The position numbers were made by a program, and so were the translations under genes. Below are positions 1,942 through 44,974 of a stretch of 48,708 bases of DNA, piece by piece. The notes under the pieces were generated by a model. It was not told the DNA's origin. It did not search any database and saw nothing but the letters and a program-made list of their open reading frames with translations. The stretch's first letter is position 1. Every line of letters starts with the position of its first letter. The stretch is from a virus, in IMG/VR virus record IMGVR_UViG_3300027741_000102, positions 1 to 48,708 of that record. The stretch is one strand, 5' to 3'.

Positions 1942-4310
1942 TGGCAAATGTCACTATTACCCAACTTCCAGCCGCAGGAACAATAACTGGAACGGAGCTT
2001 GTCCCCATTGTTCAGAATGGTGTGACTGTTCGCACCACTACTGGTGCTATCACATCAGGCCCAAGCCTCACCCAGACCTTTTTAACGCTTAACAATCAGC
2101 CTAGTCTGGCCAACAGTCGGTACTTTTCGGTTGGAAATGGCCTTGGATTGACCGATAACGGCGCCCAAAGCAGCCTTCTCTTGTCTTTAACGGGCGCTTC
2201 GGCCTCTCTTAACACCGCTGGCAACGGTTTTGCAGTCAAAACTGGCTTAACGACTGTCGTTAGCCGCACGTTAACAACCGCAAACAGTGGTTTGTCGGTC
2301 ACAAACGGCGACGGGGCCTCTGGAAACCCTGTTTTTAGCCTTACTGGCACACCTTTGTCGCTTGCAAACCTGTCTGGTGGCGGATTTGTGGTTGCTATTG
2401 ACCCCTCTACGCTGACTCAGCGGTCAATTACGGGGACATCTAATCAAATTTCGGTCGCTAATGGCACCGGCGTCTCCAATAACCCGACAATCAGCATTGC
2501 TGACAACGCAGTATTCCCCGGGAATCAGGGTGTTGTGGTGCCCAATGGCACGACAGTACAGAGAGCCGGTGTTCCGCTGAACGGAACCATTCGATATAAC
2601 ACCGATACGGCAAACATTGAGGGTTACGCCAACAATGCTTGGGGTGCAATCTCGGTAGGTGGTGGCGTTACGTCGGTAAACGTGACTGGTGGGACTACTG
2701 GCCTGACGACTTCTGGTGGCCCAATTACCGCATCAGGCACGATTGTGTTTGCCGGCACCCTAATCACCACAAATGGTGGTACCGGGCAGTCTTCGTATAC
2801 AGCTGGTGATATTGTTTACTACGCCTCGGGCACTGCACTCAGCAAACTTGCAATTGGGACTAATGGTCAGGTATTAACCTCAACAGGGACCGCCCCGCAG
2901 TGGACGACGCTGTCTTCGGTTAGCGTGACTACATTCTCGGCCGGGACTACTGGATTAACGCCAAACACCGCCACAGGGGGCGCTGTAACGCTCGCTGGCA
3001 CGCTCAATGTAGCGAATGGTGGTACAGGTGCCACAACGCTGACCGGATACGTCAAGGGTTCTGGTACAAGCGCGTTTACGGCCTCGGCAACCATACCAAA
3101 TACTGACATCACTGGTCTGGGCACGATATCAACGCAGGCCGCGAACAACGTAGCCATAACTGGTGGTGCAATTAATGGAACCACGGTGGGTGCCACGACT
3201 CCAGCAGCTGGTACGTTCACGTCGGTGACAATGACTACGGGGACAATCACTACTGCCCCGACGAGTGGCAATGACATCGTCAACAAGACATATGCGGACT
3301 CAATCGCAACGGGGATTAACTTCCACCAAGCCTGTCGATTGGCTACCGCTGCGGCCCTGCCTTCGTGTACATACAACAACGGCTCATCAGGTGTTGGTGC
3401 AACCCTTACAGCAACGGCGAATGGAGCACTGTCTGTAGACGCCACGCTTGTTGTTGTTGCTAACCGCATCCTTGTTAAGAATCAAGCCAATCAGGCATAT
3501 AACGGTGTGTATACGGTCACTCAAGTCGGTGATGGGTCAAACCCATTTATTCTGACTCGAGCTACTGATTACAACACCGCAGGCTCTGGTGTTAACCAGA
3601 TTGACGTCGGTGACTTCTTCCTAATTACCGCTGGGGCGACGCTAGCTAATACGTCGTGGGTTCAACAGACGCCGCTGCCCATCACCGTAGGCACTACGGC
3701 AATTGTGTTCTCGCAGTTTGGTTCGTCAGTTACATACACGGCAGGTACTGGCCTTTCTGAGTCCCCGGCGTATACGTTCAACATTGCCACTACTGGAGTG
3801 TCCTCGGGGAACTACGGTGGTGCGGCGACCGTTCCTGCGCTGTCTATTAACGCGCAGGGACAGATTACTTCAGCGACTAATACGTCGATTGCGATTGCCG
3901 CGTCACAGGTAACTTCAGGGCAACTAGCGATTGCACAGGGCGGTACTAACACAAACGCCACTCCGACGGCAGGGGCGGTTCCTTACGGTACTGGAACGGC
4001 TTATGCGTTCTCTGCCGCAGGGACATCAAGTCAAGTTCTGTTGTCTGGTGGTACGGGCTCGCCAACGTGGGCTAACCAGTCGTCCTTGTCTGTGGGCACC
4101 GCAACTAACGCGACAAATGCCACCAATGCTACGAATGCTACAAACACGGCAATCACTGACGATACATCTACCAACTCAACCATGTACCCAACATGGGTGA
4201 CCGCCAATACTGGGAATCTTCCGCAGAAGGTAACATCAACCAAACTTACGTTTAATCCGTCCACCGGAGTCTTGACTGTGACTGGTGGCATTTCAGGGGG
4301 GACATTCTGA
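1941..4310 (+). CDS. Repeat-rich tail fibre protein
   Basis: 789 residues, Thr/Gly/Ser/Ala-rich, with almost no charged residues. The N-terminus ITQLPAAGTITGTELVPIVQ is a recurring attachment-type start in phage fibres. The body is built from loose repeats with the motifs NGGTGQSSYT, VLTSTGTAPQWT and SAGTTGLTPNTATGGAVTLAG, the usual signature of trimeric beta-structured fibre shafts. A different, more polar domain at about 450-590 (VLVKNQANQAYNGVYTV) may be an inserted carbohydrate- or assembly-related module. It ends GGISGGTF, similar to the end of the protein at 9325-10566. It overlaps the next fibre gene by one base (TGATG). Role: host recognition or fibre stalk. Confidence 0.8.
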   Translation: MANVTITQLPAAGTITGTELVPIVQNGVTVRTTTGAITSGPSLTQTFLTLNNQPSLANSRYFSVGNGLGLTDNGAQSSLLLSLTGASASLNTAGNGFAVKTGLTTVVSRTLTTANSGLSVTNGDGASGNPVFSLTGTPLSLANLSGGGFVVAIDPSTLTQRSITGTSNQISVANGTGVSNNPTISIADNAVFPGNQGVVVPNGTTVQRAGVPLNGTIRYNTDTANIEGYANNAWGAISVGGGVTSVNVTGGTTGLTTSGGPITASGTIVFAGTLITTNGGTGQSSYTAGDIVYYASGTALSKLAIGTNGQVLTSTGTAPQWTTLSSVSVTTFSAGTTGLTPNTATGGAVTLAGTLNVANGGTGATTLTGYVKGSGTSAFTASATIPNTDITGLGTISTQAANNVAITGGAINGTTVGATTPAAGTFTSVTMTTGTITTAPTSGNDIVNKTYADSIATGINFHQACRLATAAALPSCTYNNGSSGVGATLTATANGALSVDATLVVVANRILVKNQANQAYNGVYTVTQVGDGSNPFILTRATDYNTAGSGVNQIDVGDFFLITAGATLANTSWVQQTPLPITVGTTAIVFSQFGSSVTYTAGTGLSESPAYTFNIATTGVSSGNYGGAATVPALSINAQGQITSATNTSIAIAASQVTSGQLAIAQGGTNTNATPTAGAVPYGTGTAYAFSAAGTSSQVLLSGGTGSPTWANQSSLSVGTATNATNATNATNATNTAITDDTSTNSTMYPTWVTANTGNLPQKVTSTKLTFNPSTGVLTVTGGISGGTF

Positions 4311-31254: not shown

Positions 31255-31383
31255 ATGGCAGCACTGTTTTCAATTTGGCTAGCAGCCCAAAGTTGTACTG
31301 TGCAGGACTACTGGTTCCCCAAGGGAACTCTTAAATGTATGACCTGCTGCGACGACGGGAAGTGTTGGACGATTTGCCAATGA
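31255..31383 (+). CDS. 42-residue Cys-rich small protein
   Basis: MAALFSIWLAAQSCTVQDYW, FPKGTLKCMTCCDDGKCWTI, CQ. It has six Cys in the last 29 residues and a hydrophobic start that could be a short signal or membrane segment. It begins 4 bases after the previous stop (GGGGGTGA upstream) and its TGA overlaps the methyltransferase ATG, which argues for translation. It might be exported with disulfides or bind metal. Confidence 0.5.
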   Translation: MAALFSIWLAAQSCTVQDYWFPKGTLKCMTCCDDGKCWTICQ

Positions 31384-32684
31384 AATACCTTTCTGTTTGC
31401 AGCGGAATTGAGGCCGCCTCTGTGGCTTGGCACCCGCTGGGCTGGACGCCTGTAGGTTTCGCCGAAATAGAGTCATTCCCAAGCGCCGTTCTGGCGCACC
31501 ATTATCCTAATGTTCCTAACCTAGGGGACATGACTAAATTCAAGGATTGGAATGTTGAAGACATTGACTTGCTCGTCGGCGGAACGCCTTGCCAAGCCTT
31601 CTCTGTTGCTGGACTTCGGGGAGGACTTTCAGATTCCAGAGGAAACCTCACCCTCACCTTCGTCGAAATGGCAGACCACTTCGACCCTAACTGGATTGTC
31701 TGGGAAAACGTGCCGGGCGTCCTCTCAAGCCAAGACAACGCCTTCGGATGTTTTCTGGCAGGCCTTGTCGGAGCAAGTGAGCCCCTCGTTCCAGACGGCC
31801 GATGGGACAACTCAGGTTTGGTCTCTGGGCCGAAGCGCACAGCTGCATGGCGCATTCTTGATGCTCAATACTTCGGAGTGGCCCAACGACGCAGACGTGT
31901 CTTTGTGTGCGCTGTCCGAGGTTCTAGAAACTGGGCCGCTGCCAGAGCGATTTTTTCTGTCGGCGAAAGCGTGTACTGGGATTCTGCGCCGCGCCGAGAA
32001 ACGCGGCAAAGCATTGCCCCCACAGTTAGCAGCGGCGCTCCTTTCAGTCGCACAGGAAACGAAAGAGTAGAGGCTCAAGCATTAGTCTCCCACGCCTTCA
32101 AGGTGTGCCAAGGCTGCGAGGGTGGAGGCAAAGGCTATCTGGGTAGCGATGAGCTGGCGCTCACCATCTCAACGCACCAAGACCAGCACATCGCGCAGCC
32201 CATCACGTTTGGCGCACAGATGTCTACGCCGCAGACCGATGTCAATCTGGTACAGACGTTGCAGGCCAAGAACCCGATGGCCGTCGCGCAGCCGGTGGCG
32301 TTTGATGGCTACAGTCAAACTGTATCTAACATCTGCCAAACTATTAGGGCAAGCAAGTCTGATGGAGACCATGTCGGTATGGTGCTGCAGCCGGTGGCGT
32401 TCGCGCAAAACCAACGTGACGAAGTGCGGACAATGGAAATTGCGGGTGCGTTAGCTGCGGAACCCGGCGCGAAACAGCAGACGTATTTGCACCAAGCTAT
32501 GCAAGTGCGCCGCCTCACGCCGACTGAGTGCGAACGGTTGCAAGGCTTCCCCGGCGGTTACACGAACATCCCGTGGCGCAACAAGCCAGAGGCACCAGAT
32601 GGCCCGCGATACAAGGCGTTAGGCAATTCAATGGCCGTACCAGTCATGCATTGGATTGGTAAACGAATCAACAACTTGATATAA
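31380..32684 (+). CDS. C5-cytosine DNA methyltransferase
   Basis: 434 residues from ATG 31380. YLSVCSGIEAASVAW (motif I, SAM binding), VGGTPCQAFSVAG (motif IV, catalytic Cys71), VWENVPGV (motif VI, Glu109), AQRRRRVFVCA (motif VIII), and at the end RRLTPTECERLQGFP and KALGNSMAVPV (motifs IX-X). The region about 190-370 between VIII and IX is the target-recognition domain; it contains repeated QPVAF and QTIRASKSDGDH segments. No partner restriction enzyme is present, so it is solitary and likely protects phage DNA from host restriction. Confidence 0.9.
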   Translation: MKYLSVCSGIEAASVAWHPLGWTPVGFAEIESFPSAVLAHHYPNVPNLGDMTKFKDWNVEDIDLLVGGTPCQAFSVAGLRGGLSDSRGNLTLTFVEMADHFDPNWIVWENVPGVLSSQDNAFGCFLAGLVGASEPLVPDGRWDNSGLVSGPKRTAAWRILDAQYFGVAQRRRRVFVCAVRGSRNWAAARAIFSVGESVYWDSAPRRETRQSIAPTVSSGAPFSRTGNERVEAQALVSHAFKVCQGCEGGGKGYLGSDELALTISTHQDQHIAQPITFGAQMSTPQTDVNLVQTLQAKNPMAVAQPVAFDGYSQTVSNICQTIRASKSDGDHVGMVLQPVAFAQNQRDEVRTMEIAGALAAEPGAKQQTYLHQAMQVRRLTPTECERLQGFPGGYTNIPWRNKPEAPDGPRYKALGNSMAVPVMHWIGKRINNLI

Positions 32685-32690
32685 TTAAAG

Positions 32691-32764
32691 AGCAGGGTAG
32701 TGAAGAGGTACCACGCCGGCTTCATGCGCCGGAAACCCGGGTTCAAATCCCGGCCCTGCAACCA
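32691..32764 (+). tRNA. tRNA with CAU anticodon (Met/Ile2/initiator-like)
   Basis: 74 nt including an encoded CCA. Acceptor AGCAGGG (32691-32697) pairs with CCCTGCA except at position 1:72, which is A:A. Anticodon stem CCGGC/GCCGG with loop TTCATGC, anticodon CAT at 32723-32725; T arm CCGGG-TTCAAAT-CCCGG; discriminator A then CCA. The 1:72 mismatch and the 3-prime end resemble bacterial initiator tRNA, but the anticodon stem lacks three G:C pairs in initiator order and the D-stem 11:24 pair is elongator-like. Position 37 is G. It follows the methyltransferase by 6 bases on the same strand. Confidence 0.9.
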
Positions 32765-35009: not shown

Positions 35010-36372
35010 CAAGATTCAATCGCTGTCACCGCACGAACAAGTAGCGGTGGCGGCGAGAATCAAATGGCTGGCTACTGCTCACAAGTACCAAGTCCCTCCT
35101 CCCCTCGAGGTGGACTACACAGTGTGGATGATGCTTGCCGGGCGGGGAGCGGGGAAGACTCGCTCTGCTGCCGAAGCCCTCTGGTGGTGGGCATGGACTC
35201 ATCCTGAATCCCGGTGTCTAGTGCTGGCCCCTACGTCTAATGACGTGAAGTTCACCTGCTTCGAGGGACAGTCAGGGCTATTGTCTGTAGTCCCGCAAGC
35301 CCTGATATCCGACTACAACAAGCAGGACCATCAGATAAAGCTCGTTAACGGGTCAATCATCAGAGGCATCTCTGGCGACTCGTATGAGCGTCTACGCGGC
35401 CCACAGTGGCACTTCGCTTGGTGCGACGAATTAGCAGCCTTTCAATACCTCAGAGACGCGTGGGACATGATGATGTTTGGTCTGCGTCTTGGGGAACAAC
35501 CCCGGGTCATTGTTACTACAACGCCGAAGCCTAAAGACCTAATCCTCGAACTGGTCGATAGAGAAGACTGCATCGTCGATAGAGCAACGACGTATGAAAA
35601 CATCAACAACCTAGCGCCGTCGTTCGCACAGCAGCTAGAGCAGTATCGTGGTACCAAGCTCTTTGAGCAGGAAGTCTTGGGTGAGATTGTTGACCTCGAG
35701 GACGGCAAGGTTGTCAGCCGGAATATGTTCCGCCTGTGGCCCGCTGAGAAGCCTTTCCCGAAGTTCGAGTTCATCGTCCAGTCTTACGATTGCGCCTTCA
35801 GCGAGAAGACCTACAACGACCCAACAGCCTGTACGACGTGGGGAGTCTTCAAGCCGATGGATGGCCCGATGTCTGTCCTGCTGATTGACTGCTGGGCTGA
35901 ACACCTATCGTTCCCTGACTTGAAGCCTCGGGTGATTGATGAGTTCAGGGTGTCATATGGCGAAGGTAAAGATGCGAAAAAGCCTGACCTGATTCTGGTT
36001 GAGGATAAGGCTGCTGGCATTTCACTGATTCAGGAACTGCAACGCGCTCACTTGCCGGTGCGCTCTTATAATCCGGGGCGAGCGGATAAAATGCAGAGAT
36101 TGCAAATTGCCGCAGCGATATTTGCAGCCAAGCGTGTCTGGTTACCTGAGTCGTCTGTCAAGAAGGGTTTTGTCAGAGACTGGTGTGAGGGCTTCCTCAG
36201 CCAGATATGTTCATTCCCCGATTCAGAGCACGACGATTATGTAGACAGTGCAACGCAGGCCGTTAGATTGTTGAAGGATATGGGTTTCCTAGACATCGAC
36301 CCAGAGCCTCGTTACGATGATGATGACTTCATCGACATAAAACCCAAGAGGATGAATCCCTATGCCGAGTAA
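34993..36372 (+). CDS. Terminase large subunit
   Basis: 459 residues from GTG 34993; an upstream GTG (34930) in the same frame is possible. ATPase: Walker A GRGAGKT (50-56), Walker B around WHFAWCDELAA, and coupling motif VIVTTTPKP. Nuclease domain: VQSYDCAF, LILVEDKAAG and EHDDYVDSATQ give the three acidic clusters of the RNase H-like headful or cos nuclease. It drives DNA translocation into the procapsid and cuts concatemers. Overlaps the next gene by 11 bases. Confidence 0.92.
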   Translation: MLELADKIQSLSPHEQVAVAARIKWLATAHKYQVPPPLEVDYTVWMMLAGRGAGKTRSAAEALWWWAWTHPESRCLVLAPTSNDVKFTCFEGQSGLLSVVPQALISDYNKQDHQIKLVNGSIIRGISGDSYERLRGPQWHFAWCDELAAFQYLRDAWDMMMFGLRLGEQPRVIVTTTPKPKDLILELVDREDCIVDRATTYENINNLAPSFAQQLEQYRGTKLFEQEVLGEIVDLEDGKVVSRNMFRLWPAEKPFPKFEFIVQSYDCAFSEKTYNDPTACTTWGVFKPMDGPMSVLLIDCWAEHLSFPDLKPRVIDEFRVSYGEGKDAKKPDLILVEDKAAGISLIQELQRAHLPVRSYNPGRADKMQRLQIAAAIFAAKRVWLPESSVKKGFVRDWCEGFLSQICSFPDSEHDDYVDSATQAVRLLKDMGFLDIDPEPRYDDDDFIDIKPKRMNPYAE

Positions 36373-38611
36373 AGAGCAGTTACTAAATGAATATCTGCTT
36401 TCCGCAATGGATACCGGCAAAGTGGAAATGAAATCACCTCGAGCGGGTAAGGGCGGGGAAGCTCTAGTGACAGCCGCTGAAAACGTCTTACCGTTTGTCG
36501 GTGCCGCTAAGTCTGCCTTTGAGGGTGACTACAGAAATGCGATGATTCAAGCCGGCCTAGACGTAGCCCTGCCGCCCGCTGTAAAGGGCGCTGCTGCACT
36601 GGGCGGTAAGTTCCTAGCGCCCGCACTGATGGGTGCCATCAAGGCTTACCACGGCAGCCCGCACAAGTTCGACAAGTTTGATATGTCAAAGATTGGTAGT
36701 GGCGAAGGCGCACAGGTTTATGGACATGGTCTGTACTTTGCGGAGAACCCGAATGTTGCGAAAGGCTATCAAGTTCAATTAACAAGAGCTGACAGAATTG
36801 GCCCAACAAAAGCTGGCATGGCTATGGTTGGAGAAATTCCAGCAAAAAACATTTCTCAAGATGTTTGGGAGGTTGCTGACGTTCTTGCCTCAAGAAATAT
36901 AAGTATTGATGAATACATAAATGACTTGCAAAAAAAGATAAAAAATGCAAAAAACGAAACAAGAAAAACGATTTCTCAAGAACTTATTGACCAAGCAAAC
37001 AAAGTTAAATCTGAGCTAAAAGGTAAATCTATTCGTTGGGAAGAGCCCGGCAGTTTCTACGAAACAAACCTTCGCTGGCCTGACGCAGCGAGAGAGGCTG
37101 CTGACCCGCTTAGCCCGCATCACTTCTTGGATTACGACAAGCCGCTGAGTGAACAAAGCGATTATGTAAAGTCTATGTTGTCTGTTGACAAGCGGGCCAA
37201 AGATAAACTGTACGGTAGTGGCGCTGAATACTATCGTGGTTTAACTGGTCGTTATGCTCAAGATGCTCCAATTCATTTTTCTGCAGAACAGGCAGAAGAG
37301 AAGTTTGGAATGCCGCTTGCTTCGCAACAATTAAAGGCACTTGGCATTCCCGGCATCCGTTACCTAGATGCTGGCTCACGCTCTAACTTTAGAGTGCAAA
37401 CTTCATATAAAGGTGAGCCATATGGTGAGCCTGTTTCATTTATGACTGAGCAGCAAGCATTAAATTACGCCAAAGAACAACAAGAAAAAGGATTTGGTGT
37501 TGACGTTATGCCGGGCACATCTAACTACGTCCTGTTCTCTGATGAGCTTGCAGACATCCTCAAGCGCAATGACGAGCAGTTGAAGGCTAAAGGTGGTGAA
37601 GTCCACATGGCAGATGGTGGTCCCCCTCAAACCCAAGAAAAATCTAAGTCATTGTCAGAAATCATTGATGAACTGCCAGCAAAAACAGCGGACAAGCTCG
37701 TTGAACTTGCTTTACAGGCATATGGCGGTTTAAGAGATAGAGGCTCTTTGCCCGCCAATCAGAAAGTTTTTTTAGATACGTTTGTTGATAAGAATAAAGC
37801 CCCCATTACTGAAAAAATGTTTAGCGAGCCTGAGTTGCGTGCATTGAACGCAATGATTTCAAGCAAGGGTGGAAGCAAGGGAAGCATCCAATATGATGAC
37901 TACGGTTCTTTTATGAACACAAGTCAAGTCAGCGGCAACAAGGGGGTTTTAGAGGCCGGCAAAAATCCTTACGAGTCTCTTCGCACGACCCTTGGCCAAT
38001 TCAATTACAGATTGGACCCCACCACTAAGAAATACGTTGTGGAAGACACCTATGACTTTAATAGGCTGCAAAAGCCGCCGGCGTCTGGCGGGAAGACATT
38101 AGAAGAAGTGTTTAAGATGTCTGATTACATTGCGCAGCCCGAGGTGTTCAATCCGATTGAATTGAATCCATATATGGCTTTGCGTCTTTACGCCGGCAGA
38201 AATATGCCTGAGGGACAAGGTAGGCCAGTAAGCATAAACGTGCCCAAGAAGAAGGGCGGCAAGGTTGAAGCCAACGCATTTCCGTATGGCCTGCGTCATG
38301 ACTCTGAGCTGCCGAAGGGTAAGGGATACTTCGGCCCAATGACAACTTCGTCTGGTGACGTTATGACCGAGTACTCATCGTCTGATGATGCTGGGGACTA
38401 CCCGCTAGTTGTTCCTACTTTGACCGCGGATGAGATTAGAACTCTCCTATCAAACGGCGAACTCACAGAGCAAATGCTGGATAAAGCCCAAGGCTGGGCA
38501 GATGCTAGACGCAAGATGGGCAAGAGTCCGTTTGCTGGCAGCGATGAACTTCGGTTGCCGGTTCCTAAGAAAGCGGGCGGCTCCACTACTAAATCAGTAA
38601 AGAAGAGGTAA
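36362..38611 (+). CDS. Virion-region protein with ADP-ribosyltransferase-like (ART-PolyVal) domain
   Basis: 749 residues. Residues 30-93 are Gly/Ala-rich and weakly hydrophobic. From 94 an ART-like fold follows: KAYHGSPHKFDKFDMSKIGS (His of the H-Y-E class), YGHGLYFAENPNVAKGYQ (Tyr), and the closing GIPGIRYLDAGSR plus TSNYVLFSDELADIL. An AT-rich insertion (about 175-220) interrupts it. The C-terminal third has the Lys/Gly-Gly motif KAKGGEVHMADGG and a PLVVPTLTADEIRTLLSNGE element seen in other phage virion proteins. It lies between terminase and portal, so it may be packaged and injected to modify a host target. Confidence 0.7.
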   Translation: MPSKEQLLNEYLLSAMDTGKVEMKSPRAGKGGEALVTAAENVLPFVGAAKSAFEGDYRNAMIQAGLDVALPPAVKGAAALGGKFLAPALMGAIKAYHGSPHKFDKFDMSKIGSGEGAQVYGHGLYFAENPNVAKGYQVQLTRADRIGPTKAGMAMVGEIPAKNISQDVWEVADVLASRNISIDEYINDLQKKIKNAKNETRKTISQELIDQANKVKSELKGKSIRWEEPGSFYETNLRWPDAAREAADPLSPHHFLDYDKPLSEQSDYVKSMLSVDKRAKDKLYGSGAEYYRGLTGRYAQDAPIHFSAEQAEEKFGMPLASQQLKALGIPGIRYLDAGSRSNFRVQTSYKGEPYGEPVSFMTEQQALNYAKEQQEKGFGVDVMPGTSNYVLFSDELADILKRNDEQLKAKGGEVHMADGGPPQTQEKSKSLSEIIDELPAKTADKLVELALQAYGGLRDRGSLPANQKVFLDTFVDKNKAPITEKMFSEPELRALNAMISSKGGSKGSIQYDDYGSFMNTSQVSGNKGVLEAGKNPYESLRTTLGQFNYRLDPTTKKYVVEDTYDFNRLQKPPASGGKTLEEVFKMSDYIAQPEVFNPIELNPYMALRLYAGRNMPEGQGRPVSINVPKKKGGKVEANAFPYGLRHDSELPKGKGYFGPMTTSSGDVMTEYSSSDDAGDYPLVVPTLTADEIRTLLSNGELTEQMLDKAQGWADARRKMGKSPFAGSDELRLPVPKKAGGSTTKSVKKR

Positions 38612-38614
38612 CGA

Positions 38615-41125
38615 ATGGCTGAAGAGTTTCCTATCGACCCGAATTATGGTCGTTTCGTTGATGGCATTAAGCCTACTGAAGACGGTGGTGCTGAGGTCGA
38701 GCTTCCTGATGACATGAGCGACATTGAGGAGCTGCCTGATGGTTCCGCTGTAGTCAGTCTTGATGATGAGTTCAAGGGTCCTAATGAGTCGGAAGACTTC
38801 TATGAGAACCTTGCCGAAGTATTCAGCCCAATGGAGCTGGACACTATCGCCATGCGTTACATCGAGCTTATTGACAAGGACAAGGAAGCCCGCAAGCAAC
38901 GCGACAAGCAATACGAAGAGGGATTGAAGCGTACTGGTATGGGCAACGACGCCCCCGGTGGTGCCACCTTCACTGGCGCGTCTAAGGTCGTTCACCCTGT
39001 CATGGCAGAGGCTTGTGTTGACTTCGCTGCCCGCGCATCAAAAGAACTGTTTCCGCCTGATGGTCCTACCCGAACGAAGATTCTGGGTGAGGTGACCGAC
39101 GAGAAGGTTGAGGTTGCAGAGCGCAAGCGTGACTACATCAACTGGCAGCTGACCGAACAGATTGAAGAGTTCAAGGACGAACTCGACCAGATGCTGACCC
39201 AACTACCTCTCGGTGGTAGTCAGTACATGAAGCTCTGGTACGACGACAAGAAGAAGCGCCCGTGCGCAGAGTTCATTCCTATCGACAACATGATTCTGCC
39301 GTTCGCGGCTACCAACTTCTACACCGCACAGCGTGCAACGGAGATGCAAGACATCACCGAGTGGGAGATGGAACAGCGTATTGGCGCTGGCCTGTATCGC
39401 GACATCAACATGATTCGCGCCACCATGGAGCCGGAAGAGACTGGCCCGATGAAGGCCAACAACAAGATTGAAGGCCGCAAGTACGAAGACAGCGTTGACG
39501 GTCTGCGCCGCGTATACCACGTATACACATACCTGTCGTTCGATGAGGACAACTACACGAAGGGCGAGTCCGCTCCTTACATCCTCATGATTGATGAACT
39601 CGAGAGTGAGGTCATCGGTTTGTATCGCAACTGGGAAGACGGCGATGAGACCATGACCAAGCTGGACTGGCACGTAGAGTTCAAATTCATCCCGTGGCGG
39701 GGTGCATATGCCATCGGCCTGCCGCACCTCATAGGCGGCCTCTCAGCGGCTCTGACGGGTGCTTTGCGTGCCCTGATGGACTCGGCCCACATTAATAACG
39801 CAGCGACCATGCTGAAGCTAAAGGGGGCGAAGGTCTCTGGTCAATCTCAACAGGTTGAGGTTACTCAAATCGCCGAAATTGAAGCAGCCCCGGGCGTTGA
39901 TGACATCCGTAAGGTTGCGATGCCGATGCCGTTCAATCCGCCGTCGCCTGTTCTCTATCAACTGTTGGGTTGGCTGACTGACGCTGCTAAGGGTGTAGTC
40001 ACAACCTCGGAAGAGAAGATTGCCGATGCGACCAGCCAGATGCCTGTGGGTACGGCGCAAGCCCTGATTGAACAGGGCGCTGCGGTGTTCTCAAGCATTC
40101 ACGGTCGCCTGCATGAATCGCAGCGTCGTCTGCTATCTATCCTTGGGCGCATCAACCGCTGGTATTTAGACGAACAGAAGAAAGGCGATGTCGTTGCTGA
40201 ACTGCCGATTAAGCGCGAAGACTTCAAGCGCAACACCGACGTTGTTCCTGTCTCTGACCCGCACATCTTCTCTGAGACCCAGCGCATGGCGCAGTCTCAA
40301 GCGGTTCTCCAGTTGGCTCAACAGTTTCCGATGTTGATTGACCAACGGGTTGCGGTAGCACGGATTCTCAAACAGCTGAAGGTTCCGAACGTCAATGAGT
40401 TGATGCCTAACTCTGGCAAGGCTCAAGAGCGCAACGCTGCAGAAGAGAACGCCGCCATGACTCTGGGGCAGTCTGCCTTTGCGTATCCGCGTCAGGACCA
40501 TCTGGCGCACATCATGACTCACCTGAACTACGCGATGGACCCCAACCTAGGTGCCAGCCGTTTGATTGCCCCGCGCTTCATTCCGCAGGCTCTTGAACAC
40601 ATCAAGCAGCATCTGTTGCTCTGGTACACACAGCAGATGAATGACTACGCCACCCCGGATACCCCGGGAGCAAAACTTGGCAAGTATGAAGAGTCGAGGT
40701 TTGCCAAGCAGATTGACCGCGTCATGGCTCTGGCGTCTGAGCACGTCAAGCAAGACTCTCAGCAGACTCTGGCGCAGATTACTGCTGCTGTTGGCCAACT
40801 GGGCGAATACATGAAGCAGTTTCAGCAACAACCGCCGATGGACCCTGAAGCTCAAGCAGTCCTGCAGGCATCGATGGCTGAAACGCAACGTAGAGCGCAG
40901 CGTGACCAAGCAGAGCTGGCACTACAAGCACAACGTCTGCAAGCCGAACAGGCTGGCAAGACTATGGACCGTCAGATTGAAGTGGCTATGAACGCCGAAA
41001 ACAATCTGACTAAGGAGCGCATGAAAGCCGCAGATTTGACTATTGACGAGGCCAAATTGCGCAAAGAGCAGTATGAGACTGCTATGACGTTGAACAACGC
41101 TATCCAGCGTGACCTAGGAGGTTGA
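38615..41125 (+). CDS. Portal protein
   Basis: 836 residues, long like podovirus portals of the P22/phiEco32 type. After an acidic N-terminus come ASKVVHPVMAEACVDFAARA, SKELFPPDGPTRTKIL, LPLGGSQYMKLWYDDKKKRP, PIDNMILPF and FIPWRGAYAIGLPHLIGGLS, then LLGWLTDAAKGVVTTSEEKI. The C-terminus (about 680-830) is a long Gln/Glu/Arg helix forming the barrel. It makes the dodecameric ring through which DNA enters and leaves. Follows the ART-like gene by 3 bases. Confidence 0.88.
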   Translation: MAEEFPIDPNYGRFVDGIKPTEDGGAEVELPDDMSDIEELPDGSAVVSLDDEFKGPNESEDFYENLAEVFSPMELDTIAMRYIELIDKDKEARKQRDKQYEEGLKRTGMGNDAPGGATFTGASKVVHPVMAEACVDFAARASKELFPPDGPTRTKILGEVTDEKVEVAERKRDYINWQLTEQIEEFKDELDQMLTQLPLGGSQYMKLWYDDKKKRPCAEFIPIDNMILPFAATNFYTAQRATEMQDITEWEMEQRIGAGLYRDINMIRATMEPEETGPMKANNKIEGRKYEDSVDGLRRVYHVYTYLSFDEDNYTKGESAPYILMIDELESEVIGLYRNWEDGDETMTKLDWHVEFKFIPWRGAYAIGLPHLIGGLSAALTGALRALMDSAHINNAATMLKLKGAKVSGQSQQVEVTQIAEIEAAPGVDDIRKVAMPMPFNPPSPVLYQLLGWLTDAAKGVVTTSEEKIADATSQMPVGTAQALIEQGAAVFSSIHGRLHESQRRLLSILGRINRWYLDEQKKGDVVAELPIKREDFKRNTDVVPVSDPHIFSETQRMAQSQAVLQLAQQFPMLIDQRVAVARILKQLKVPNVNELMPNSGKAQERNAAEENAAMTLGQSAFAYPRQDHLAHIMTHLNYAMDPNLGASRLIAPRFIPQALEHIKQHLLLWYTQQMNDYATPDTPGAKLGKYEESRFAKQIDRVMALASEHVKQDSQQTLAQITAAVGQLGEYMKQFQQQPPMDPEAQAVLQASMAETQRRAQRDQAELALQAQRLQAEQAGKTMDRQIEVAMNAENNLTKERMKAADLTIDEAKLRKEQYETAMTLNNAIQRDLGG

Positions 41126-41126
41126 A

Positions 41127-41303
41127 ATGGCAACTGATGTTAAGCAAGAGCAAAGCGAAGAAGTAAAGCAACATCACCGGATGGCCGCCGGTGCTTGGAT
41201 TGAAGGTGATTCGCTCCAAGAACGTGGTTCGGCCACCATGCCCGAGGCTAACTCGGACCATGGCAATTTTGGCAACAAGGGCGTTGACAAAGACAACGCA
41301 TGA
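41127..41303 (+). CDS. 58-residue conserved small protein after portal
   Basis: MATDVKQEQSEEVKQHHRMA, AGAWIEGDSLQERGSATMPE, ANSDHGNFGNKGVDKDNA. It starts 1 base after the portal stop with an ideal AGGAGGT and its TGA overlaps the next ATG (ATGA). Polar, probably disordered at both ends. Small genes in this slot are common; function unknown. Confidence 0.65.
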   Translation: MATDVKQEQSEEVKQHHRMAAGAWIEGDSLQERGSATMPEANSDHGNFGNKGVDKDNA

Positions 41304-41485
41304 AGTCGCTGTCTGACCTCATAAGTGCTGTAAAAGCGCGTCAGAACGAGATAGCCGTCAGTCTTGCGCGGGGAACTGCGGGAGACTTTGCGGCCTATCA
41401 ACGTCTGGTGGGGGAACACGCGGGGTTGCAAGCAACCCTGAACATTATTGACAACCTGTTAAGGGAAGACGATGAATATGAATGA
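41300..41485 (+). CDS. Small helical protein in head module
   Basis: 61 residues: MKSLSDLISAVKARQNEIAV, SLARGTAGDFAAYQRLVGEH, AGLQATLNIIDNLLREDDEY. Three amphipathic helices; the YQRLVGEHxGLxxTLxIIDNLL pattern is widespread in small head-module proteins of podoviruses. Overlaps neighbours on both sides. Function unknown. Confidence 0.7.
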   Translation: MKSLSDLISAVKARQNEIAVSLARGTAGDFAAYQRLVGEHAGLQATLNIIDNLLREDDEYE

Positions 41486-41900
41486 GCCGGTAGCGTGTAA
41501 TGACGCTGATTTGCGGGATGCATTTCCTGCTGTAGACCCCGGTGCGAAGCCTCTTGGAGCGCGAGTTCTAGTACAACTGCGCCGAACCAAAGACAAAGCT
41601 ACGAGTGCCGGGATTATTTTGGTTCACGAAACCAAAGAAACCGAGAAGTGGAACAACATGGTGGCCAAGGTTATTGAGATTGGTCCCCTTGCGTTCCGCA
41701 AGCGCGACGATATGGAGCTGTGGCCTGAGGGGTCATGGTGTGCCGTTGGTGATTACATTCGGGTTCCGAAGTGGGGTGGTGACCGCTGGGAGGTTGAAGT
41801 GCCCGGCGAGGAAGAGCCTGCCCTGTTTATGGTCCTCAATGACCACGAAGTCATTGCCAAAATCACCGGCAATCCGTTGACTGTGAGGGCATTCGTATGA
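41472..41900 (+). CDS. GroES-like co-chaperonin (Cpn10 family)
   Basis: 142 residues from ATG 41472 (ATG 41478 also possible). KPLGARVLVQLRRTKDKATS followed by AGIILVHETKETEKWNNMVA, KVIEIGP and GSWCAVGDYIRVPKWGGDRW correspond to the Cpn10 beta barrel: the N-terminal strand, a mobile loop ending in SAGIIL, the roof strand VAKVIEIGP and the GDYIRVP strand. It ends with FMVLNDHEVIAKITG. Phage GroES versions (T4 gp31, RB49 CocO) reprogram host GroEL to fold capsid protein. Placement between portal and scaffold/capsid genes supports that role. Confidence 0.8.
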   Translation: MNMNEPVACNDADLRDAFPAVDPGAKPLGARVLVQLRRTKDKATSAGIILVHETKETEKWNNMVAKVIEIGPLAFRKRDDMELWPEGSWCAVGDYIRVPKWGGDRWEVEVPGEEEPALFMVLNDHEVIAKITGNPLTVRAFV

Positions 41901-42883
41901 GCGACAACAAAGAAGAGCTAAAAGACATTGATGTCATTGAGGAAAAAGATGGTTCTGCGACCATTGATTTGCCGGAAGGCATGGAAAATCCTCAGTCAGA
42001 CGATGAAAAAGACGAAATTGGGGCTGCTGGCTCTGATAGTCAGGACGATTCTTCGGATAATGAAGACTATCCCGACGACAGTGAGGCTGTAAGGGCACAA
42101 AAACGGGCCAAACGTAAGGCTCGTCGCGAGTATGCCAAGCAGGTTCACTCTGCCGAACGCACTGAATTGCAGTTTTTGCGTCGTCAAGTTTCTGAAATGG
42201 CCGAGAAAATGGCCGTTCAGGAGCGTAAATCGCTTGCGTCTGATTTTGCCCGTTTAGATAAGGCAATTGATGACCAGCGTTCGCGTATTAACTTCGCAAA
42301 ACACAAAATTGCCGAAGCAACCAATTCTCAAGACGGTGAATTGCTGACTTCTGCGCAAGAAATGTGGTTTGAATCGCGCCGAAATCTAGAAATGCTTGAG
42401 GCTGCGAAGAAAAGGGCGGTCCAACAACCTCAAGGCCCGGCTCAAACCGCCGCAGACCCTGTATTGCAGCGTCATGCCAGTGAGTGGATGTCTAGAAACT
42501 CTTGGTATAACCCCGCCGACAATAATCCGGACGTAAAAGTTGCTTTAACTATTGACCAAGCTCTTGCTGAAGAGGGCTGGGACCCTCGTACAGCTGATTA
42601 TTGGGATGAATTAGATAATCGCTTGCAGCGTTATCTGCCCCATCGTTATACTGAACAGGCAGGAGGAAAATCTGCTCAACGCCGACCGAGGAATGTTGTG
42701 ACGGGTTCAGGAAGAGAAAGTATGTCGAATAGTGGTAGCGGCGGGCGTAACACGTTTACGTTGTCGCCCGAGCAAGTTCGCGCCATGAAAGACGCAGGCT
42801 TTTGGGATGACCCGGACAAGCGAGCGAAGATGATTCGACGCTACGCGCAAGAAGCACGACAAAACAACGGTTACAGGAGTTAA
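41897..42883 (+). CDS. Putative scaffolding protein
   Basis: 328 residues. The N-terminal 65 residues are extremely acidic; a basic helix (KRAKRKARREYAKQ) and a long coiled coil (about 75-180) follow; then a compact C-terminal part with SEWMSRNSWYNPADNNPDVK, QALAEEGWDPRTADYWDELD and FTLSPEQVRAMKDAGFWDDP. This acidic-helical build directly upstream of capsid genes is typical for scaffolds. It would guide procapsid assembly and be released. Overlaps the co-chaperonin gene by 4 bases. Confidence 0.7.
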   Translation: MSDNKEELKDIDVIEEKDGSATIDLPEGMENPQSDDEKDEIGAAGSDSQDDSSDNEDYPDDSEAVRAQKRAKRKARREYAKQVHSAERTELQFLRRQVSEMAEKMAVQERKSLASDFARLDKAIDDQRSRINFAKHKIAEATNSQDGELLTSAQEMWFESRRNLEMLEAAKKRAVQQPQGPAQTAADPVLQRHASEWMSRNSWYNPADNNPDVKVALTIDQALAEEGWDPRTADYWDELDNRLQRYLPHRYTEQAGGKSAQRRPRNVVTGSGRESMSNSGSGGRNTFTLSPEQVRAMKDAGFWDDPDKRAKMIRRYAQEARQNNGYRS

Positions 42884-44059: not shown

Positions 44060-44974
44060 ATGGCAGCCCCGATGCGCAGTACAGACTTTCGTAGCATTGT
44101 CGAACCCATTCTTAATGAGTGCTTCGACGGTGTCTACGACCAACGTACCGACGAATGGTCGCGTGTTTTCCGCGAACAAGAAGGTATTCCCCGCAACTAC
44201 CACGAAGAGCCGGTTCTGTACGGCTTTGGCGCGGCACCGCAACTGCCTGATGGCACGCCGGTTTCGTACCAACAAGGTGGTGTGCTGTTCCTCAAGCGTT
44301 ACGTTTACAACGTTTATGGTCTGGCCTTCGCGCTGACCAAGGTGCTTGTTGAAGACGGCGACCACATCCGTATCGGTCAGGTCTATGCACGCCACTTGGC
44401 TCAATCGCTGATTGAAACCAAGGAAACCCTGTGCGCCAACGTGTTGAACCGCGCGTTCAACTCGGCATATCCGGGTGGTGACGGCGTGGCTCTGAACTCG
44501 GCTTCGCACCCGATTGTTAACGGTACCGTCAGCAACCTGCTGACCACCGCCGCTAACCTGTCGCAAACCTCGCTTGAGCAAATGCTCATCCAGATTCGTC
44601 AGGCTGTGGACAACAACGGTAAGAAGATTCGTCTGGTTCCGCGTCAACTGGTTGTGGCCCCGGGCAACATCTTCCAAGCAGAAGTTCTGCTGAAGAGCGT
44701 TCTCCGTTCGGGCAACGCCAACAACGACATCAACCCCATCAAGTCGATTGGTCTGCTTGATGAAGGTGCTGCCGTTCTGTCGCGTTTGACCTCGGCCACC
44801 GCTTGGTGGGTCCAGACCGATGCTCCGGAAGGCATGAAGCTTCTGATGCGTCGTAAGCTGGAAAAGACCATGGAAGGTGACTTTGAAACCGACACCATGC
44901 GCTACAAGGCAACTGAGCGTTATGACACCGGCTTCACTGACTGGCGTGCCATGTACGGCACCCCGGGTGTGTAA
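44060..44974 (+). CDS. Major capsid protein (HK97-fold)
   Basis: 304 residues with AAGGAGGGC upstream. MRSTDFRSIVEPILNECFDG at the N-terminus (N-arm), YEEPVLYGF-like EEPVLYGFGAAPQLP, then GQVYARHLAQSLIETKETLC, the long helix SLEQMLIQIRQAVDNNGKKI, RLVPRQLVVAPGNIFQAEVL and the end YKATERYDTGFTDWRAMYGT. These are features of compact HK97-like major capsid proteins. Codon use is strongly biased. It would form the icosahedral shell; about the right length without a delta domain. Confidence 0.85.
   Translation: MAAPMRSTDFRSIVEPILNECFDGVYDQRTDEWSRVFREQEGIPRNYHEEPVLYGFGAAPQLPDGTPVSYQQGGVLFLKRYVYNVYGLAFALTKVLVEDGDHIRIGQVYARHLAQSLIETKETLCANVLNRAFNSAYPGGDGVALNSASHPIVNGTVSNLLTTAANLSQTSLEQMLIQIRQAVDNNGKKIRLVPRQLVVAPGNIFQAEVLLKSVLRSGNANNDINPIKSIGLLDEGAAVLSRLTSATAWWVQTDAPEGMKLLMRRKLEKTMEGDFETDTMRYKATERYDTGFTDWRAMYGTPGV

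Follow-up and report, generated by a model that had tools for sequence, protein, structure and literature searches.

A GroES-like co-chaperonin gene in a phage head-gene cluster and its pairing with one capsid lineage

The Cpn10 gene and its neighbourhood

The window, by which we mean the whole stretch of 48,708 nucleotides analysed, is a 48.7 kb linear contig that is possibly incomplete. Its head-gene cluster starts with the small (34331, Sf6-type) and large (34930) terminase subunits, followed by a 749-aa polyvalent-type protein (36362) and by the portal protein of 836 aa (38615–41125, + strand; PHROG 1216, 3e-20). After the portal come, in this order, ORFs of 58 and 61 aa, a Cpn10/GroES co-chaperonin gene (41472–41900, + strand; 142 aa, 15.9 kDa), ORFs of 328, 177 and 198 aa, and the gene of the major capsid protein (MCP; 44060–44974, + strand; 304 aa, 33.8 kDa), which matches Pfam PF25209 (2.6e-12) and PHROG 4523 and 371. 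Among 82 loci selected for the presence of Cpn10, 81 have a portal match, 80 have the 328-aa protein (in the same slot) and 71 have the MCP, the misses being mostly due to contig ends. An earlier note on this DNA had described the 142-residue ORF and its SAGIIL motif, which indeed occupies residues 45–50, and had assigned the genome to a small podovirus. The latter label is not sustained, considering that the contig may be incomplete and that annotated relatives carrying the same module measure 40–65 kb and are labelled podo-, sipho- or myovirus.

The Cpn10 gene is the third in a run of four overlapping ORFs on the + strand, namely the 58-aa ORF (41127–41303, defined from sequence and translation), the 61-aa ORF (41300–41485, present in 80 of the 82 loci), Cpn10 itself and the 328-aa ORF (41897–42883). 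Two overlaps consist of ATGA, one joining the two small ORFs (41300–41303) and the other shared by the Cpn10 stop and the ATG of the 328-aa ORF (41897–41900); the third, between the 61-aa ORF and the Cpn10 start, spans 14 nt. These short overlaps make translational coupling plausible. Co-translation with the scaffold had been proposed earlier, but this neighbour carries no scaffold annotation. It is an acidic protein of PHROG 28737 (unknown function), a putative scaffold by position and composition. The dN/dS of the Cpn10 gene against close relatives is 0.08–0.12, which indicates purifying selection.

Other features of the window were recorded on the way. The 749-aa protein between terminase and portal (36362–38611) gives a sub-threshold match (26.1 vs 31.2 bits) to ART-PolyVal, the ADP-ribosyltransferase domain of polyvalent proteins, and contains the segment YHGSPHKFDKF...GHGLYFAEN. 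A C-5 cytosine DNA methylase (PF00145, 1.8e-42) is encoded at 31335–32684, with a tRNA-Met gene just downstream (32691–32764), and the 495-aa protein at 4310–5797 matches the Pfam glycine-rich domain PF21722 (29.5 bits vs 24.3).

Family, fold and loops of the phage protein

The HMM search suggested in the earlier note places the protein in the Pfam family Cpn10 (PF00166) with 29.6 bits, above the gathering cut-off of 21.1 (E = 7.2e-7), and PHROG 3188, "co-chaperonin GroES", is matched with an E-value of 1.2e-9. All 53 homologues of a diverse alignment match Cpn10 and no other Pfam family. The NCBIfam GroES models are matched far below their cut-offs only (24 vs 120 bits), as expected of a divergent phage member. 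With the single sequence, phmmer finds weak matches in the PDB (best E 0.0045, Cpn20), while the profile of the 53-member alignment matches solved GroES chains of bacterial, mitochondrial and chloroplast origin at 1e-11 to 1e-12. The AlphaFold2 model (mean pLDDT 78.6, pTM 0.76) retrieves from the PDB, using Foldseek, Cpn10 entries only at E ≤ 0.001, T4 gp31 being next (E 0.018). Its VIA-align Z-scores reach 8.3 for GroES and 6.6–7.1 for gp31, whereas the next unrelated fold scores 3.6; the nearest viral structure models are GroES proteins of uncultured phages. The ORF is thus a genuine Cpn10/GroES and chance is excluded. HMMs, structure and synteny together bear out the claim that a GroES-like co-chaperonin lies beside the capsid genes. 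Fold, strand order, mobile-loop tip and roof-loop position are those of bacterial GroES/Cpn10 (PF00166), from which the protein differs by a low identity (~15–27% in structural alignments), by longer loops, and by an N-terminal extension of ~24 residues and a C-terminal tail of ~10 beyond GroES.

Loop lengths were read from an alignment of the window protein and E. coli GroES on the family profile, against which the E. coli reference sequence scored as expected. The mobile-loop region (41592–41651, + strand) comprises residues ~41–60, with the tip A46-G-I-I-L50. By this alignment, in which loop boundaries are uncertain, it exceeds the corresponding part of E. coli GroES by ~5 residues, ~1 of them before the tip and ~4 after it. 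The tip motif [AGS]G[IVL]x[LKR] is kept in nearly all relatives, the AGIIL of the window being one glycine short of the usual GGI[VI]L. The lowest AlphaFold2 confidence (pLDDT <50) falls on residues 41–50, at the mobile-loop position, and this loop is disordered in free GroES. Conserved tip and low model confidence together point to a flexible mobile loop carrying a hydrophobic tripeptide for GroEL. Cpn10 support and a mobile loop were the two points on which the earlier note had let its assignment depend; HMMs and fold agree on Cpn10, and the loop is predicted to be present. The conservation of the tip across the family also bears on the idea that the Cpn10 fold now serves in the virion or in head assembly and no longer works with GroEL. 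Such a reuse would suit the position among head genes and the terminal extensions, but the tip would be superfluous in a purely structural role, and we consider this explanation highly improbable.

The roof-loop region (41682–41750, + strand; residues 71–93) aligns with the GroES roof hairpin. The interval G71–G93 is 23 residues long throughout the 44 close relatives, against 20 in most of the distantly related phage proteins and 19 in E. coli GroES. The segment KRDDMELWPEGSW (residues 77–89), which had been singled out as an extra loop, lies inside this interval, and therefore represents a slightly longer roof loop (~4 residues more than in E. coli GroES) in its ordinary position. The hairpin that follows, at residues 103–123 (41778–41840, + strand), exceeds that of E. 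coli GroES by a few residues and counts 20–25 residues in the window clade vs 15 in relatives; its longer beta-hairpin turn, VPGEEEP, is found in this clade only.

The same segment had been taken to enlarge the GroEL cage as T4 gp31 does. Like gp31, the window protein is a phage-encoded lid expected to work with host GroEL, and gp31 is among its structural matches. Moreover, the mobile loop of gp31 is 22 residues long vs 16 in GroES (PMC6318259), and a longer mobile-loop region, as the alignment suggests, would be the sole gp31-like trait of the window protein. On the other hand, gp31 is devoid of roof loops and serves gp23, a client of ~56 kDa (PMC6318259), whereas the window protein keeps its roof loop, slightly lengthened, and its own MCP is well below that mass; identity between the two co-chaperonins is just 14–16%. 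With the roof loop kept and an MCP of 33.8 kDa, the chamber-size argument has no basis and the analogy with gp31 is unsupported. In addition, relatives that keep the gene have neither the 3 extra roof residues nor the hairpin insertion. A lid of the gp31 type, whose longer loops enlarge the GroEL chamber for a client too big for GroES, is accordingly quite unlikely.

Association with the capsid lineage

Phage GroES genes of this kind are already described. GroES belongs to the 13 genes that form the core of HTVC023P-type pelagiphages (PMC9599517). It is also encoded by CRP-901-type phages, whose structural genes, unlike their replication genes, are shared with HTVC023P (PMC10149686). Reports of GroES in myo- and podoviruses preceded its description in a siphovirus (PMC4294664). 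Relatives of the window protein are indeed annotated as co-chaperonin GroES. Those of HTVC023P-type pelagiphages, of the Caulobacter phages RW/KcrB, of Roseobacter CRP-901 and of DSL-LC04 belong to the same family and occupy the same slot between portal and MCP. They are 25–60% identical to the window protein, whose clade has a roof loop longer by 3 residues and a C-terminal hairpin longer by 5 to 10. The combination, in Roseobacter CRP-901, of an HTVC023P structural module with another replication module indicates that the GroES gene travels with the capsid genes.

The MCP of the window matches 19 phage records, and Cpn10 is present in all of them, as determined by HMM in 13 and by tblastn in six (GB2A, RW, RLK, Pag-Yong1, Pra-JY27 and CRP-902). 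Two scans of IMG/VR were then made with distant MCPs of the lineage. Loci in which the sequence upstream of the MCP reached at least 3.5 kb were kept and searched for Cpn10 with an HMM trained on the phage relatives together with E. coli GroES (E ≤ 1e-3). Cpn10 was found in 75/75 of these MCP-selected loci among the matches listed, which come from best-first lists and are not independent. It always lies on the strand of the MCP (+) and ends 1.8–3.2 kb upstream of it. Conversely, tblastn with the CRP-901 GroES matches 20 of 50,697 phage records, mostly those already known to carry this MCP, a number that underestimates all phage Cpn10s because gp31-like proteins are too divergent for tblastn. 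The statement that co-chaperonins are rare thus holds for phages in general and fails for this lineage, in which GroES is a published core gene and occurs in every MCP-bearing record tested. That this capsid lineage comes without exception with a co-chaperonin of its own, in many different hosts, is the mildly new element here; in the literature searched (open-licence papers only) we did not find a general rule of this kind stated.

This distribution also weighs on the view that the phage protein is a general take-over lid, supplying more co-chaperonin capacity to every phage and host protein and having no particular link to the capsid. T4 gp31 can substitute for GroES with all host clients (PMC6318259), so that such a role is conceivable; yet the gene keeps to a single capsid lineage, it sits within the head cluster, and few other phages give a tblastn match with the phage GroES. 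We regard a general take-over as somewhat unlikely.

In the most distant MCP relatives (vir526 and MW202601) Cpn10 lies outside the portal–MCP interval. The annotation of vir526 shows no Cpn10 between portal and MCP, and this virus was therefore expected to serve as a Cpn10-free natural control; it was rejected as such, its Cpn10 being located upstream of the terminase. This record (BK063670) is assigned to Methanomicrobiales, and its Cpn10 gene maps at 2827–3183. Most archaea have group II chaperonins and no GroES, so that either the partner of this Cpn10 is in doubt or the host assignment is wrong. Cpn10 is lacking in two remote MCP matches, which mark the edge of the association: one is a fragment of 10.8 kb, the other a Helicobacter prophage whose match covers 39% of the query. 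As a separate observation, the records of Acinetobacter phage MD-2021a and Listeria phage LM 4-11-1/4-14-1 match GroES by tblastn and may represent bacterial DNA filed as phage; if so, phage chaperonin counts are inflated.

Proposed role as a lid for host GroEL

No Cpn60/GroEL gene was found in the 32 sequences searched (the window, 13 named records and 18 contigs), and HTVC023P-type and related phages share this feature. If the phage GroES acts as a lid, it must therefore use the GroEL of the host. Very probably it is a dedicated lid for this GroEL, folding the proteins of its own lineage and, among these, probably the capsid protein. Most likely it would form a seven-membered ring, whose IIL-tipped mobile loops would dock on host GroEL and close the folding chamber. 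It may replace or supplement host GroES late in infection, allowing phage structural proteins to fold efficiently under the lid. The MCP, encoded in the same gene cluster, would be the most plausible client, and any protein of the head cluster could be one. This model is based on the Cpn10 family and fold, the conserved tip, the strong purifying selection, the fixed place in the head cluster, the constant presence with the capsid lineage and the lack of a GroEL gene in the record and its relatives.

To our knowledge, phage GroES proteins without GroEL are known, and the need for one is clear only in T4, with its large client. In the loci tested the present lineage is never found without its own GroES, which can be read as dependence of its capsid protein on a dedicated lid, although a protein of this size would fit the normal chamber. 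We propose tentatively, as a possibility short of an even chance, that this capsid lineage, spread across Caulobacter, SAR11, Roseobacter, cyanobacteria and Alcaligenes, needs a lid of its own for which host GroES is no substitute. In every sample tested, cultured Caulobacter phages included, GroES is inseparable from the 33.8 kDa capsid protein, and its occurrence in these cultured phages makes the question of phage lid versus host GroES testable in a tractable host.
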